Positions 3,949-9,567 of a DNA stretch of 11,522 nucleotides are shown in pieces. Origin of the DNA: Neisseriaceae bacterium. Its GTDB lineage: Bacteria > Pseudomonadota > Gammaproteobacteria > Burkholderiales > Neisseriaceae. Numbering within the stretch: position 1 is the stretch's first letter; every line of letters begins with the position of its first letter. The stretch lies in assembly GCA_017989485.1 (NCBI GenBank), contig JAGNPU010000023.1, positions 1 to 11,522 of the forward strand, in the 5' to 3' direction. The notes below the pieces were generated by a model, which was given only the letters and a program-made list of their open reading frames with translations, searched no databases and was not told the origin of the DNA. The position numbers were made by a program, and so were the translations under genes.

Positions 3949-4695
3949 ATGGATAGGCAAAAACTGTTGTCCTGGTGTGACGAGCGCTTGCGCGTCAATG
4001 CCTATAAGGACTATGCGCCCAATGGGCTGCAGGTTGAGGGCCGGTGCGACATCAACACCATTGTGCTTGCCGTCACCGCCAGTCAGGCGGCGATTGACCA
4101 TGCGATTCAGGTCGGCGCCGACATGCTGTTGGTGCATCACGGCCTGTTTTGGAAGAGCGAGCCGGTGCCCATCATCGGCTGGAAAAAGCAGCGGATTGCG
4201 GCTTTATTGGCGCATGACATCAATATGGTGGGGTTTCACCTGCCGTTGGATGCGCATGAAACCTTGGGCAACAACGCCCAGCTGGCTCGGGTATGTGGTT
4301 GGACGGTTGAGGCACAGGTGGGGGATCAAGGCTTAATTATGCTAGGAAAAACCGAATCTGCTAATTCCTTAACAGAATTTCTGGATCAGTTGGAGACTAG
4401 CCTGAAACGCAAGCCTTTAGGCATAGGCAGACCTGACAAGATCATTAATAAATTAGCATGGTGCACGGGTGGGGCGCAGGGTTATTTTCAGACGGCCATA
4501 GATTTGGGTGTCGATGCGTTCATTACCGGAGAGGTGTCTGAAGCCCAATACCATTTGGCGCAAGAATGCGATGTGGCCTTTATTTCAGCGGGTCACCACG
4601 CAACCGAACGCTATGGTGTGCAAGCCTTGGGCGAAGAGATTAGTCGGACTTTTGGCATCACCTGCCAGTTTTTCGACGAACAAAACCCTGTTTAA
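3949..4695 (+). CDS. Nif3/YbgI-family dinuclear-metal protein (DUF34)
   Basis: A member of the Nif3-like family (COG0327), often labelled GTP cyclohydrolase 1 type 2; its physiological reaction is unsettled. Family blocks are clear: DYAPNGLQVEG, VTASQAAIDHA, LLVHHGLFWK, FHLPLDAHETLGNN, WCTGGAQGYF, DAFITGEVSE and SAGHHATER. From this start the metal ligands fall at His63, His64, Asp101, His216 and Glu220, nearly the E. coli YbgI numbering (63, 64, 101, 215, 219). That favours the ATG at 3949, which has GGA seven bases upstream, over the in-frame ATG at 3937 (four residues longer). The 248-residue length is normal. It is probably cytoplasmic and has its own candidate promoter in the groEL terminator loop. 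No clear terminator is seen before petA. Confidence 0.9.
   Translation: MDRQKLLSWCDERLRVNAYKDYAPNGLQVEGRCDINTIVLAVTASQAAIDHAIQVGADMLLVHHGLFWKSEPVPIIGWKKQRIAALLAHDINMVGFHLPLDAHETLGNNAQLARVCGWTVEAQVGDQGLIMLGKTESANSLTEFLDQLETSLKRKPLGIGRPDKIINKLAWCTGGAQGYFQTAIDLGVDAFITGEVSEAQYHLAQECDVAFISAGHHATERYGVQALGEEISRTFGITCQFFDEQNPV
4487..4498 (-). other. DNA uptake sequence-like word
   Basis: The minus strand reads TGGCCGTCTGAA. Its last ten bases equal the neisserial DUS GCCGTCTGAA, and it matches the 12-base AG-DUS dialect (AGGCCGTCTGAA) at 11 of 12 positions. It lies inside the Nif3-family gene, encoding Phe-Gln-Thr-Ala. It is the only full copy seen, so chance is possible. Confidence 0.45.
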
Positions 4696-5418: not shown

Positions 5419-6765
5419 ATGAGTACGAATAACAGCAAGTTGCAAGCTTTGCTCGGTTGGGTAGACGATCGTTTTCCGCTGTCGAAAATGATGAAAGAGC
5501 ACGTAACGGAATATTACGCGCCTAAAAACTTTAACTTTTGGTATTTCTTTGGCTCTTTGGCCATGTTGGTGTTGGTGATCCAAATTGTGAGTGGTATTTT
5601 CTTGACCATGAACTACAAGCCAGACGGTACCTTAAACGGTGCTGGCCTGCCGGTGGCGTTTGCCTCTGTGGAATACATCATGCGTGACGTTTCGGGTGGT
5701 TGGTTGATTCGCTACATGCACTCAACCGGCGCATCCATGTTCTTCGTGGTGATCTACCTACACATGTTCCGTGGTTTGATCTACGGTTCATTTAAAAAGC
5801 CCCGTGAATTGGTTTGGGTATTTGGCTCATTAATCTTCTTGTGCCTGATGGCCGAGGCCTTTATGGGTTATTTACTGCCTTGGGGACAAATGTCCTTCTG
5901 GGGCGCGCAGGTGATTATTAACCTGTTCTCAGCCATTCCCGTGATTGGCCCTGATTTGTCTGTTTGGATTCGTGGTGACTTTAACGTTTCTGACGTGACC
6001 TTAAACCGTTTCTTCGCTTTACACGTGATTGCCATCCCCTTGATTTTGGTTGGCCTCGTGGTGGCGCATTTGATCGCCCTTCATGAAGTGGGTTCAAACA
6101 ACCCTGATGGCGTTGAAATTAAAGCCATTAAAGACGAAAACGGCATTCCTAAAGACGGTATTCCTTTCCATCCTTACTACACTGTAAAAGACATTGTGGG
6201 CGTTGTGGTGTTCTTAATCGTCTTTAGTGGCATTTTGTTCTTCCTGCCTGAAGGCGGTGGTTTCTTCCTAGAAGCGCCTAACTTCGACCCAGCAGACCCA
6301 ATGAAGACGCCTGCCCATATTGCACCGGTTTGGTATTTCACGCCTTACTATGCGATTTTGCGCGCGATTCCGTCTTTCTTAGGGACGCAGGTTTGGGGTG
6401 TGTTGGGTATGGGTGCTGCCGTGGTGTTGATTGCCCTATTGCCTTGGTTGGATCGCTCACCTGTTAAATCTGTCCGCTACCGTGGCCCGATCTACAAAAC
6501 GATGTTGGTGTTGTTCATCATCTCGTTCATCGGCTTGGGTATTTTGGGTGCGATTCCAGCAACTGACTTGCGGACCATCGTGTCTCGCGTCCTGTCAGTG
6601 GTGTATTTTGTGTTCTTCTTGGGCATGCCTATTTACACCAAAATGGATAAAGTTAAACCAGTACCTGAACGTGTGACCATGAGTTCAACCAGCAACAAAA
6701 TCAAGTTCTTGATTTATGTGGTGGTGACCCTTGTGGGTGCGTACTTGTTCGGTCAGTTTATTTAA
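5419..6765 (+). CDS. petB: Cytochrome b subunit of cytochrome bc1
   Basis: Integral membrane core of complex III, holding hemes bL and bH and the Qo and Qi quinone sites. At 448 residues it is a full-length proteobacterial cytochrome b with eight core helices, an extended loop after the SNNPDG motif and an extra C-terminal helix. The helix B heme ligands are His101 and His115; those of helix D are His202 and His217, 15 residues apart, against 14 in bovine and alpha-proteobacterial proteins. The Qo motif is PVWY (303-306) instead of PEWY, the form reported for beta- and gamma-proteobacteria. GGA (5410-5412) precedes the start. Only ten bases separate it from petC. Confidence 0.97.
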   Translation: MSTNNSKLQALLGWVDDRFPLSKMMKEHVTEYYAPKNFNFWYFFGSLAMLVLVIQIVSGIFLTMNYKPDGTLNGAGLPVAFASVEYIMRDVSGGWLIRYMHSTGASMFFVVIYLHMFRGLIYGSFKKPRELVWVFGSLIFLCLMAEAFMGYLLPWGQMSFWGAQVIINLFSAIPVIGPDLSVWIRGDFNVSDVTLNRFFALHVIAIPLILVGLVVAHLIALHEVGSNNPDGVEIKAIKDENGIPKDGIPFHPYYTVKDIVGVVVFLIVFSGILFFLPEGGGFFLEAPNFDPADPMKTPAHIAPVWYFTPYYAILRAIPSFLGTQVWGVLGMGAAVVLIALLPWLDRSPVKSVRYRGPIYKTMLVLFIISFIGLGILGAIPATDLRTIVSRVLSVVYFVFFLGMPIYTKMDKVKPVPERVTMSSTSNKIKFLIYVVVTLVGAYLFGQFI

Positions 6766-6775
6766 GGGTAGGCAA

Positions 6776-7561
6776 ATGAAAAATAAATTAAAAGCTTTAT
6801 TGGTTGCCGCCGCCATGGTACTGCCTGTTGCTCAGGTAAGTGCCGCCGGTGCTGCCGTTACTGAAAAAGTGAACATTGATTTGGGCAACCAGGCTGGTTT
6901 GCAACGTGGTGCCCAGATCTTTACCAACTACTGTTTGTCTTGTCACTCTGCCAGCAATATGCGGTTTAATCGTTTGACGGATTTAGGCTTGACCGAAGAT
7001 CAGATTAAAGACAACCTCATGTTCACGACGGACAAAATTGGCGACACCATGATTGGTGCTTTGGCGCCGGAAGACGCCAAAGAATGGTTTGGCTCTGTGC
7101 CGCCTGATTTGTCTTTGATTGCGCGTTCTCGTGGTGCGGATTATCTGTACGCCTACATGCGTGGGTTCTATAAAGATCCTTCACGCCCATCGGGCTGGAA
7201 CAACACCACATTTGATAAAGTGGGCATGCCTCACGTATTATGGGAACAGCAAGGCGTTCGTGCGGTAGAACTTGATGACAAAGGCGCACCGGTTTGGGAG
7301 AAAAACCAAGCGGGCGTGCTCGAGCCTAAGTTGTACTGGGAGCGTACGGGCTTACATACCCGTGCGATTGATGAGACCCGTGTCGTGACGGCTGAGTACG
7401 ATCAGTACGTGACGGACTTGGTGAACTATTTGGTGTACATGGGTGAGCCAGCGTTGTTGAAACGCAAACAGATCGGTTACGGTGTGTTGATGTTCTTGCT
7501 GGTGATCATGTTGCCATTGGCGTACTTCCTGAAGAAAGAATACTGGAAAGACGTTCATTAA
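6776..7561 (+). CDS. petC: Cytochrome c1 subunit of cytochrome bc1
   Basis: Membrane-anchored c-type cytochrome that takes electrons from the Rieske cluster and passes them to soluble cytochrome c or an oxidase. The 261-residue protein has a Sec signal peptide (MKNKLKALLVAAAMVLPVAQ, cut near Ala23), a CLSCH heme site at 53-57, a VPPDLSLIARSRG block and a GMPHVL segment whose Met151 is the likely sixth heme ligand. A single C-terminal helix (about 234-252) ends in positive residues. The chosen ATG follows an AGG-type ribosome site and sits ten bases after petB; the frame is open upstream inside petB, but that extension would precede the signal peptide. It is last of petABC. Confidence 0.97.
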   Translation: MKNKLKALLVAAAMVLPVAQVSAAGAAVTEKVNIDLGNQAGLQRGAQIFTNYCLSCHSASNMRFNRLTDLGLTEDQIKDNLMFTTDKIGDTMIGALAPEDAKEWFGSVPPDLSLIARSRGADYLYAYMRGFYKDPSRPSGWNNTTFDKVGMPHVLWEQQGVRAVELDDKGAPVWEKNQAGVLEPKLYWERTGLHTRAIDETRVVTAEYDQYVTDLVNYLVYMGEPALLKRKQIGYGVLMFLLVIMLPLAYFLKKEYWKDVH

Positions 7562-7578
7562 TCTGATAAAGAGTTTAA

Positions 7579-8403
7579 ATGGAAGATTTGTTGCAAAAGC
7601 CGCCCGTATTGGCACCGCAAGCTTCTGAAGCCTTAAAAACTCTGGTTCACACAAAACGCGAGCAAACTGATGCTCGCGTTTTTTTACTGAACCACGAGGG
7701 CGAGACGGTGGTGATTAAGCGGCTGTCTCGAGTGCGCTTTTTGACGCTGAGGCGGTGGCTGTCGCGCTGGATTTATCGGCGCCTAGAGGCTCAGGTAGAA
7801 GCCCCTAAGCCCGCTGCGCGCGCAGCCGCTCAGGCACATGAGGTCAACCGGCTCATGCAGCTGGCGGCCGCTGGGGTCAAGGTGCCTAGGGTGATTGGGG
7901 TGGCCGATGACTGGGTGGCGATGAGCCACGTGGGCGACCCCATCGAAAAGCAGCTGGCAGAGGCCTCGGCAGATGATCGCTGGGCCACGCTAGAGGCCTT
8001 GACCTTAGATTTGGCCGACTTTCACCGCCGCGGCTGTTGGCACGGCGGGGCACAAATCCGCAACGTCACCCAGCAAGCCGATGGGTTTTATCGCTTCGAT
8101 TTTGAAGAGGATTTGGACCGAGACCTGCCTTTGAATGCCCTGCAGGCCATAGACGTGCTGATGTTTTTTAGCTCGTTGATGCGGGTGAAGACCGATGCCG
8201 ACGTGGCGCCGCAAATTGAGCGTCTGGGCAGCCTGTTGGCCCTGTACCAAGCGGCGGCACCGAATGAGCGCGTGTTGGCCTTGACTGAAAAAGGCGCAGG
8301 CTGGTTGAAAAGCATCCTGCCCTTGCTCAGGCGCATGCCGCGCCAGGGGGGGAAGGAGCGGCTGCGGGTGTTGGTGCTCATGGGTTTGTTTTTGCGACAC
8401 TAG
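7579..8403 (+). CDS. Bud32/LPS-kinase-like protein with altered catalytic loop
   Basis: Kinase-fold protein of the Bud32/RIO/KdkA type; substrate unknown. Of 274 residues, the N-lobe has a VVIK lysine (Lys47) and a helix C candidate glutamate (Glu88, AHEVNRL). The hinge region is near AMSHVGDPI, and the catalytic loop reads HGGAQIRN (155-162). Against Bud32 (HGDLTTSN) the catalytic Asp is replaced by Gly157, while Asn162 and the metal-binding Asp174 (FDFEED, in place of DFG) remain. Homologues with HGGAQxRN probably exist in other proteobacteria, so this may be a family trait. The ATG lies 17 bases after petC with a weak AAAGAG site. No in-frame ATG beyond the embedded terminator would keep the N-lobe (next ATG at 7855). 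The coding sequence is richer in GC than petC or sspA. The fold is fairly sure, the activity is not. Confidence 0.8.
   Translation: MEDLLQKPPVLAPQASEALKTLVHTKREQTDARVFLLNHEGETVVIKRLSRVRFLTLRRWLSRWIYRRLEAQVEAPKPAARAAAQAHEVNRLMQLAAAGVKVPRVIGVADDWVAMSHVGDPIEKQLAEASADDRWATLEALTLDLADFHRRGCWHGGAQIRNVTQQADGFYRFDFEEDLDRDLPLNALQAIDVLMFFSSLMRVKTDADVAPQIERLGSLLALYQAAAPNERVLALTEKGAGWLKSILPLLRRMPRQGGKERLRVLVLMGLFLRH
7653..7685 (+). terminator. Strong intrinsic terminator of petABC, inside the next reading frame
   Basis: AAAACGCGAGCA (7653-7664) and TGCTCGCGTTTT (7671-7682) form a 12-bp perfect stem with a 6-base loop, and the T-run is seven bases (7679-7685). It lies 91 bases after petC, where a petABC terminator is expected, yet it falls in codons 25-36 of the kinase-like gene. 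It should stop most petABC transcription unless ribosomes translating that gene block the hairpin. Confidence 0.88.
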
Positions 8404-8432
8404 GCGTTATTGATAGAATTGCATTTCAATAC

Positions 8433-8473
8433 AATGGCTTACCTTGGCTTTCTGGCTTTGGTAAGCCATTTTT
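8433..8473 (+). terminator. Intrinsic terminator after the kinase-like gene
   Basis: AATGGCTTACC (8433-8443) and GGTAAGCCATT (8460-8470) form an 11-bp perfect stem, and T5 ends at 8473. The 16-base loop holds two further TGGCTT words, so TGGCTT occurs three times in 25 bases. It separates the kinase-like gene from sspA and touches the sspA -10 region. Confidence 0.78.
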
Positions 8474-8481
8474 GCTATACT
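8473..8481 (+). promoter_or_regulatory. Extended -10 promoter of sspA
   Basis: TGCTATACT has the TG-N extension and a near-consensus -10 (TATACT, 8476-8481). No good -35 lies 16-18 bases upstream, where the terminator loop sits, which suits an extended -10 promoter. The predicted start is near 8488, leaving a leader of about 27 bases with the GGGA ribosome site. Confidence 0.6.
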
Positions 8482-8514
8482 GTCCCCTTCTGTTAATATT
8501 CTGGGATGTTGATT

Positions 8515-9120
8515 ATGATGACTTTGTATTCGGGTATTACCTGTCCTTTTAGCCACCGCTGCCGCTTTGTGTTGTTTGAGAAAGGCATGGATTTTGAGGT
8601 TAAAGACGTGGACATCTTTAATAAACCTGAAGACTTGGCCATTATGAACCCATACAACCAGGTGCCGGTTTTGGTGGAGCGTGAGTTGGTGTTGCACGAA
8701 TCCAACATCATCAACGAATACATTGATGAGCGCTTTCCGCATCCACAGTTAATGCCTGGTGACCCTGTGATGCGTGCACGCGGCCGTTTGTTCTTATACC
8801 GTTTTGAGCGTGAGCTGTTTGCCCATGTGGTGACCTTGGAAAACCCAGCCGCCACCAATAAAGAATTAAACAAGGCGCGCGAAGCGATTACCGAAGGCTT
8901 GACCGTGATTGCGCCGGTATTTGCCAAGCAAAAATACATCTTGGGTGAAGACTTCTCTATGATTGACGTGGCCCTGGCCCCGCTGCTGTGGCGCTTGGAT
9001 CACTACGGGATTGAGCTGGGCAAGTCTGCTGCCCCAATCTTGAAATACGCCGAGCGTATTTTCCAGCGTCAGGCCTTTATTGATTCATTGACCGCTGCTG
9101 AAAAAGCCATGCGTCGTTAA
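8515..9120 (+). CDS. sspA: Stringent starvation protein A
   Basis: RNA polymerase-associated regulator with a glutathione S-transferase fold that acts in the cytoplasm, best known from stationary phase and acid stress in enteric bacteria. The N-terminal thioredoxin-like domain begins MMTLYSGITCPFSHRCRF and includes NQVPVLVE and ESNIINEYIDERF. The PHP surface motif (75-77), needed for function in E. coli SspA, is intact. The helical domain ends ALTAAEKAMRR-like (SLTAAEKAMRR). The 201-residue length is usual. GGGA (8503-8506) is eight bases before the ATG at 8515; an in-frame ATG at 8506 overlaps that site, and ATG 8518 is also possible. It heads the sspA-sspB pair. Confidence 0.95.
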   Translation: MMTLYSGITCPFSHRCRFVLFEKGMDFEVKDVDIFNKPEDLAIMNPYNQVPVLVERELVLHESNIINEYIDERFPHPQLMPGDPVMRARGRLFLYRFERELFAHVVTLENPAATNKELNKAREAITEGLTVIAPVFAKQKYILGEDFSMIDVALAPLLWRLDHYGIELGKSAAPILKYAERIFQRQAFIDSLTAAEKAMRR

Positions 9121-9125
9121 ACCCA

Positions 9126-9149
9126 AAGGCCACTCACATGAGTGGCTTT
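9126..9149 (+). terminator. Hairpin between sspA and sspB, possible attenuator
   Basis: GCCACTCA (9129-9136) and TGAGTGGC (9139-9146) pair around CA, and flanking A and T residues extend the stem. The following TTTGTTGTG is a poor T-run, so it probably terminates only in part or protects the sspA 3' end, making less sspB than sspA. Confidence 0.5.
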
Positions 9150-9168
9150 GTTGTGTGGAAGAGTGATG

Positions 9169-9567
9169 ATGAAAACCAGTACCAAACCCTATTTGATACG
9201 CGCCTTATATGAATGGTGCGTGGACAACGAACAAACGCCGCATCTGGCCGTTTGGGTCGATGCGCACACCAAGGTGCCGATGCAGTTTGTCAAAGACGAT
9301 GAAATTGTCTTGAATATCGGGCCGAATGCCTGTCAGGGCTTAAACATTGCCAATGACTGGGTGTCGTTTTCGGCCCGTTTTGGCGGGGTGGCCCACGACG
9401 TGTGGATTCCGACCGGCAATGTGTTGACCATTTTTGCCCGCGAGTCGGGCGAGGGCATGGGCTTTGAGCTCGAGCCGTCGGCCTCGGTCGATGCGCCAGA
9501 GTCGGCCGTGGCGGCCCCGAAAGAAGATGCGCCCGCTTTGCCTAGCCATTTGAAAATCATCAAGTAG
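9169..9567 (+). CDS. sspB: SspB, ClpXP specificity-enhancing factor
   Basis: Adaptor that binds the ssrA tag on products of stalled ribosomes and delivers them to ClpXP. The 132-residue protein starts KTSTKPYLIRALYEW and has the SspB core (HLAVWVDAHTKVPMQFVKDDEIVLNIGP, with the NDWVSFSARFGG segment). An acidic, Ala/Pro-rich flexible linker follows, ending in HLKIIK. That terminus resembles the ClpX-docking peptide LRVVK of E. coli SspB, so the linker-plus-tail layout is kept. GGAAGAG (9157-9163) precedes two adjacent ATGs (9166 and 9169); the second has better spacing. A GTG at 9142 would start inside the hairpin and is unlikely. It follows sspA by 48 bases. Confidence 0.92.
   Translation: MKTSTKPYLIRALYEWCVDNEQTPHLAVWVDAHTKVPMQFVKDDEIVLNIGPNACQGLNIANDWVSFSARFGGVAHDVWIPTGNVLTIFARESGEGMGFELEPSASVDAPESAVAAPKEDAPALPSHLKIIK

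Follow-up and report, generated by a model that had tools for sequence, protein, structure and literature searches.

The terminator of the petABC operon in this Neisseriaceae genome is probably written into the coding sequence of the next gene: a hairpin followed by a T-tract, lying within codons 25-36 of a kinase-like gene, looks like a working intrinsic terminator kept by selection, and read-through would then gate the kinase. The window, that is, the whole 11,522-nucleotide stretch of DNA that was analysed, carries on its + strand what we take to be the end of rne, a tRNA-Asn gene and groES-groEL, together with a NIF3 gene, petABC, the kinase-like ORF, sspA, and sspB, while a UDG-like gene, a GNAT acetyltransferase, and a TsaD-like fragment are on the - strand. 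A single TTCAGACGGC is present inside the NIF3 gene (4487-4496); read on the other strand, it is the core of the classical Neisseria uptake sequence. The last petABC gene, petC (cytochrome c1; 6776-7561, + strand), was identified by its ORF and by Pfam PF02167, and ends with a TAA at 7559-7561. The kinase-like gene (7579-8403, + strand; 274 aa), recognized from the ORF list and profile matches, has its ATG at 7579, 17 nt past petC, behind a Shine-Dalgarno-like AAAGAG (7568-7573, + strand) that was read directly and is identical in all four genomes of the genus. The petABC genes of N. meningitidis are polycistronic, according to the passages of PMC5586341 on this operon, and those passages contain nothing on a petC terminator.

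The hairpin and its T-run occupy 7653-7685 of the + strand, beginning with the third base of codon 25 and extending two bases into codon 36. A left arm, AAAACGCGAGCA (7653-7664), a 6-nt loop (7665-7670; AACTGA in the window), and a right arm, TGCTCGCGTTTT (7671-7682), all read directly, form a perfect 12-bp stem-loop (7653-7682, codons 25-35) that was also recovered by folding and by comparison of the four genomes, and the T7 tract (7679-7685) ends at nucleotide 107 of the kinase-like ORF. A first-pass annotation had described such a stem with T7 in codons 25-36 of the ORF behind petC, and was exact to the base. The sequence contains what is expected of an intrinsic terminator, namely a GC-rich hairpin with a short loop and a U-tract immediately 3′ of the stem, and the 3′ end of petABC RNA would be expected near the end of the T7 tract. 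Counting against termination, the full 12-bp form pairs four of the seven T with the A-tract and leaves only three unpaired; in the 8-bp core, which has six GC pairs, all seven T stay outside. The hairpin was absent from an automated terminator scan because that scan demands five T beyond the longest stem.

Folding of positions 7640-7700 gave -30.2 kcal/mol, compared with -10.6 (sd 2.7) for 200 shuffles, none of which was as stable (z -7.4), and the hairpin by itself gave -17.5 kcal/mol; over 7555-7720 the excess was smaller (z -2.1, with 8 of 200 shuffles as stable). The same folding exposed a 10-bp outer helix around the putative terminator (7640-7649 paired with 7688-7698, + strand), two pairs of which are preserved in relatives via G-U changes and one of which is lost in genome G002. 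This outer helix requires sequence 3′ of the T-run and is therefore formable only in read-through RNA. Rfam covariance models yielded no match in 6700-9200 at values up to E = 1. A DNA-binding palindrome was also considered and judged unlikely, given one copy per genome and the asymmetry of the T-tract.

The hairpin is not a product of chance. Using a rule that required a perfect stem of at least 9 bp, at least 4 GC, and a run of T5 or more with three T outside the stem, we identified 81 hairpins in a 400-kb sample of genome G001, 78 of which were outside ORFs of at least 300 nt; the other three, two sense and one antisense, were in small ORFs (330-369 nt). No such hairpin appeared when the sampled G001 ORFs (342 kb) were codon-shuffled ten times. 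Further, the core with a loop of 3-8 nt occurs at a single site per genome in all four genomes of the genus, and hence is not a scattered repeat.

Conservation within the genus was assessed in four genomes, the window's and G001-G003, which amount to no more than three lineages, as G001 and G003 are nearly identical here. All 24 stem bases and the T7 tract are letter-identical in the four, with differences confined to the loop (AACTGA in the window, AACGTC in G001 and G003, CACGGA in G002). Consequently, all 12 pairs are invariant, and the fold has no covariation in its support. Codons wholly within the stem or T-run were unchanged over the three lineages in seven of seven cases versus 66 of 197 comparable codons elsewhere (P = 0.0006), and pairwise tests across codons 25-37 gave P values from 0.002 to 0.03. 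The silent-site constraint extends beyond the hairpin (12 of 16 unchanged in codons 1-25), with its clearest block at codons 13-40 and its longest unchanged run at codons 19-28. A small CAAAAG/CTTTTG hairpin, with a TTCG loop in G001 and G003, is present at codons 6-12 of G001, G002, and G003 and is broken in the window's genome.

The constraint appears to reach the protein. Homologue searches scored the best 8000 candidates, and the counts that follow are among the matches listed; 58 of 63 homologues were aligned (six of the clade and 52 wider ones), five having been dropped by length, including P0005. Two relatives in the 42-46% identity range, P0006 (46%) and P0007 (43%), share 11 and 12, respectively, of residues 26-37 with the window's protein, as against 5 and 4 of the 25 residues before and 9 and 10 of the 23 after. 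Across the six clade proteins, down to 42% identity, residues 26-28, 30, and 32-37 are invariant, and the two variable positions of this island, 29 and 31, correspond to the codons reaching into the loop. Residue 29 is Q or H, both encoded by CAN, which fits the requirement of the stem; at residue 31, where D, S, and N occur, each has a codon ending in T, which the stem also requires. Clade-specific invariance was highest at residues 26-37 (9 of 12 positions, the best of 263 windows of 12 residues), the best non-overlapping window having six. We read this invariance as a probable RNA constraint visible through the protein, the hairpin being predicted in P0006 and P0007 from their protein sequences. 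The DNA of P0006 was not found among 83 genomes of the family, near families of 6 and 43 genomes, or overlapping draws of 399 and 390 genomes of the order, nor that of P0007 among viral contigs.

It could be argued that the conserved peptide, KREQTDARVFLL, is a functional motif of the kinase clade with the hairpin as its by-product, since it is nearly invariant in proteins that diverge widely elsewhere, including in the flanks. However, the silent sites of the seven stem and T-run codons are frozen as well, random synonymous codings of the 16-aa peptide yielded a stem of at least 12 bp in only 8 of 100,000 trials, and the 52 wider homologues usually have other residues at the island positions, R33 excepted. 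We therefore consider a purely protein-level constraint very unlikely.

The same alignment bears on how the N-terminus arose. The first-pass annotation had offered, as an alternative, that insertion of the gene turned an old petC terminator into an N-terminus; on this view, a once intergenic terminator would have been absorbed as the kinase gene came to lie between petC and the sspA promoter. The arrangement petC-terminator-sspA without a kinase is indeed common in relatives, nine non-genus matches start at query residue 36 or later, eight of ten matches to P0006 as query start at residue 55 or later, and 12 of the 52 wider homologues are without the region. Yet the other 40 align across the hairpin region to the lysine with no gap or a very short one, most sharing L19, R33, and K47 in this N-terminal stretch, and P0006 and P0007 start at the same place as the window's protein. 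The N-terminus thus looks more like inherited kinase sequence than a captured spacer, and the capture proposal is poorly supported and highly improbable.

The hairpin is within real coding sequence, as had been proposed beforehand. A full-length gene, with an open frame of ~274 codons and the same ATG, is present in all four genomes of the genus, and the proteins of G001-G003 are 82-83% identical to the window's. Within codons 1-101, the four genomes have just two ATG, GTG, or TTG codons in common, ATG1 and TTG11, each lying 5′ of the hairpin, while the first common start codon 3′ of it is codon 102, inside the RIO1 match (residues 70-175). The five full-length close homologues likewise begin upstream of the hairpin. 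Synthesis of the kinase from its own promoter and a start 3′ of the hairpin, with the upstream frame untranslated, is scarcely credible: the window has GTG at codons 44, 45, and 52, and P0005 is listed from residue 93, but these GTG codons are not starts in G001-G003, P0005 comes from a contig of 1,186 bases and may be cut, and the scan detected no promoter-like + strand site between 7241 and 8392. A candidate promoter inside petC (7212-7241, 10 of 12) was set aside, as its hexamers are not preserved in G001-G003 and it would not bypass the hairpin. Without a common start between the hairpin and codon 102, full-length kinase mRNA must include the hairpin whichever promoter is used, so that, should the hairpin terminate transcription at all, the kinase could not be expressed without passing this gate.

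With respect to the protein itself, RIO1 (PF01163) passed narrowly (23.6 bits against a cut-off of 22), and matches to the Bud32 and Kdo kinase models were below cut-off. Kinases of the RIO, Bud32, and Kdo kind have their catalytic Asp in an HxD motif. All 58 aligned proteins have HGG at positions 155-157, the catalytic Asp of this motif not being present there, and the family may thus consist of pseudokinases or use other chemistry. In the window, the family motif WHGGAQxxN is at the expected site of the catalytic Asp (8041-8064, protein residues 155-162). Weak homologues (27-33%) from other Neisseriaceae (L005-L012) have HGG replaced in translation by, for example, FLSQAFARN or YLSETFARN.

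We pursued the region 3′ of petC across 60 loci: four from the genus, 42 from other Neisseriaceae, and 14 from other families. The 42 were drawn from 60 non-genus genomes with petC, 18 and the split-match loci L075-L080 being left out. In 41 of the 42, the first hairpin-plus-T-run was located 30-62 nt past the petC stop, the exception being L083 (184 nt). The genus has no such intergenic terminator, and its first hairpin-plus-T-run is at +117/118 from the petC stop, within the kinase-like gene. Other families were less regular, with 4 of 14 loci having no hairpin-plus-T-run by the same rule. The element in the window resembles the ordinary intergenic petC terminator of Neisseriaceae in its A-rich flank, GC-containing stem, and T-tract, and also in energy, the genus hairpin (about -17 kcal/mol) being within the range of the intergenic ones (-8.6 to -22.3); it differs in being in-gene, where the ordinary terminator is intergenic and has no kinase gene. 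The earlier proposal that this hairpin has a canonical terminator form and takes the place of the petABC terminator is therefore upheld, insofar as sequence and position can indicate.

None of the 56 non-genus stretches downstream of petC had a match to the kinase-like protein. The sspA match started 24-254 nt past petC in all 14 loci from other families and 177-579 nt past it in 19 of the 42 Neisseriaceae, with none in the stretch examined for the other 23, and sspA is directly 3′ of petC in many relatives. In the genus it is 949-953 nt from petC because the kinase gene intervenes. The simplest history would be insertion of the kinase gene in the interval from petC to the sspA promoter, such that the petABC terminator is now within the gene. 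The window's sspA (8515-9120, + strand) has GST domains and scored 215.6 bits with the SspA model, under its cut-off of 314. A second hairpin with a T-run, aligned by eye 3′ of the kinase-like gene (8434-8473, + strand), overlaps the sspA promoter region; its stem is similar in G002 and weaker or degraded in G001 and G003. A TATACT was seen by eye at 8476-8481 in the same promoter region.

If the hairpin is the petABC terminator, most RNA polymerases leaving petC would stop at ~7685, and the terminated petABC mRNA would have an open-ended, stop-less last ORF. The minority of polymerases that read through would generate kinase mRNA, and the kinase level would therefore be a low fraction of petABC transcription. 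The read-through fraction may rise if a ribosome that initiated at 7579 arrives at the left arm in time to keep the hairpin from folding. Termination here would also leave a translatable stop-less ORF and with it the expense of ribosome rescue, which counts against this reading.

Li et al. (PMC4824070) placed a single terminator at many positions in E. coli, and their measurements help to gauge these steps. As reported in the passages of that paper considered here, the terminator was silenced close behind a stop codon, with a limit of 27 nt, lost only ~10% of its efficiency to translation when 30 bp past the AUG, and underwent partial silencing further into the coding sequence; ribosomes were argued to rarely catch RNAP within the first 100 bp, and termination inside a coding region to leave non-stop mRNA. 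In the window, 91 nt separate the stem from the petC stop, and the stem begins 74 nt 3′ of the A in the kinase ATG. By these excerpted data, ribosomes on petC should not disturb it, since 91 nt is beyond the 27-nt limit, while ribosomes on the kinase ORF should do so only partly, since the stem is in the first ~100 bp, and any relief may be modest. The positions thus speak for a terminator that works most of the time and lets through a low, perhaps adjustable, fraction of polymerases.

A stronger role for translation, along the lines of the attenuator that the first-pass annotation proposed for a ribosome on the first 30 or so codons, is possible but less likely than not. Polymerase passage would then depend on how ribosomes initiate at, or how fast they move through, codons 1-25, and the kinase would report the coupling of translation to petABC transcription. 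In its favour, the AAAGAG and the ATG are conserved, as are the silent sites of codons 13-40, the terminator of pyrBI is likewise inside a translated leader gene (PMC4824070, in part), and, with the stem past the 27-nt limit of the same excerpts, a ribosome would have to be on the kinase ORF to affect it. Polyproline (EF-P) pausing, an idea taken from passages of PMC5021804, was rejected, as the PP at codons 8-9 is not common to G001. Such an attenuator is at odds with the mere ~10% loss noted above. Moreover, the possible pause hairpin of codons 6-12 does not form in the window's own genome, and MFE, centroid, and consensus folds, which show the most stable forms only, contained no antiterminator. 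Inspection by eye upstream of the terminator recognized no conserved pause signal, either as a hairpin or as a U-rich stretch.

Terminator-like hairpins also protect mRNA 3′ ends. The hairpin could accordingly be conserved but silenced by ribosomes, acting in mRNA stability or in the formation of a processed 3′ end of petABC with no gating of the kinase, and the outer helix, which reinforces it in read-through RNA, would suit this role. Against this, the T7 tract, needless for a stability hairpin, is invariant, and the hairpin ends at about the distance into an ORF where ribosome silencing is weak (PMC4824070, excerpts). We regard the stability role as unlikely.

Returning to the petABC terminator, its stop-less product would call for ribosome rescue. 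The tmRNA model (RF00023) scored above cut-off in two of the four genus genomes, G001 and G002, the two most complete, and gave weak matches only in G003 and the window's genome, both drafts. Matches by E-value were obtained in all 14 controls, archaea included, and nine of these were above cut-off, so only the cut-off counts. A fuller version of the preferred reading is doubtful when taken as a whole. In it, a long-retained terminator would dictate some twelve residues across homologues at 42-46% identity, the kinase could be made only by reading through from the bc1 operon, closer coupling of ribosome and polymerase would raise that read-through, and ribosome rescue would be fed by the stop-less petABC message.

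Predicted terminators inside genes are often dismissed as noise or as silenced by ribosomes, whereas the one in the window is conserved at the nucleotide level and is within the first 107 nt of its ORF. It therefore offers a natural test of whether a terminator so near a start codon works despite translation, of how a gene persists behind a terminator, and of how an RNA constraint fixes protein sequence. The prediction is that petABC messages end without a stop codon.

Among known systems, the frdABCD terminator of E. coli, which is also the ampC attenuator, is alike in that the terminator of a respiratory operon gates the next gene; it differs in that the ampC attenuator sits in an untranslated leader, unlike the in-gene hairpin here. 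We found no description in the open-licence literature of an operon terminator within the 5′ end of the next gene. Term-seq in E. coli has revealed that 3′ ends commonly fall within ORFs and 5′ UTRs, some with intrinsic signals (PMC7815308), and the ORF-internal ends described in the available passages of that study do not include a case in which a gene houses the main terminator of the operon before it. The pyrBI leader gene of E. coli (pyrL, 135 bp; PMC4824070, in excerpt) has an intrinsic terminator in translated sequence that a ribosome can in principle block, and in the window, too, the terminator is within a conserved reading frame. There, however, a short leader peptide precedes separate genes and pause sites set the coupling, whereas here the ORF itself encodes the 274-aa product and no such signal was recognized. 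In B. subtilis, brfA has a typical intrinsic terminator in its coding region, the function of which was shown via synonymous mutations, and E. coli arfA is likewise made from non-stop mRNA (both in passages of PMC6881298); brfA, by this account, demonstrates that an in-gene terminator can be real and physiological. In brfA, which encodes a small rescue factor, the terminator spares ~62 of the 71 codons, while that in the window would leave ~35 residues and would end the upstream operon, being located not near the 3′ end of a ribosome-rescue gene but at the 5′ end of a kinase-like one. Hence, a terminator inside a gene is known, and what is new here is its position at the 5′ end, where it would serve the operon upstream.
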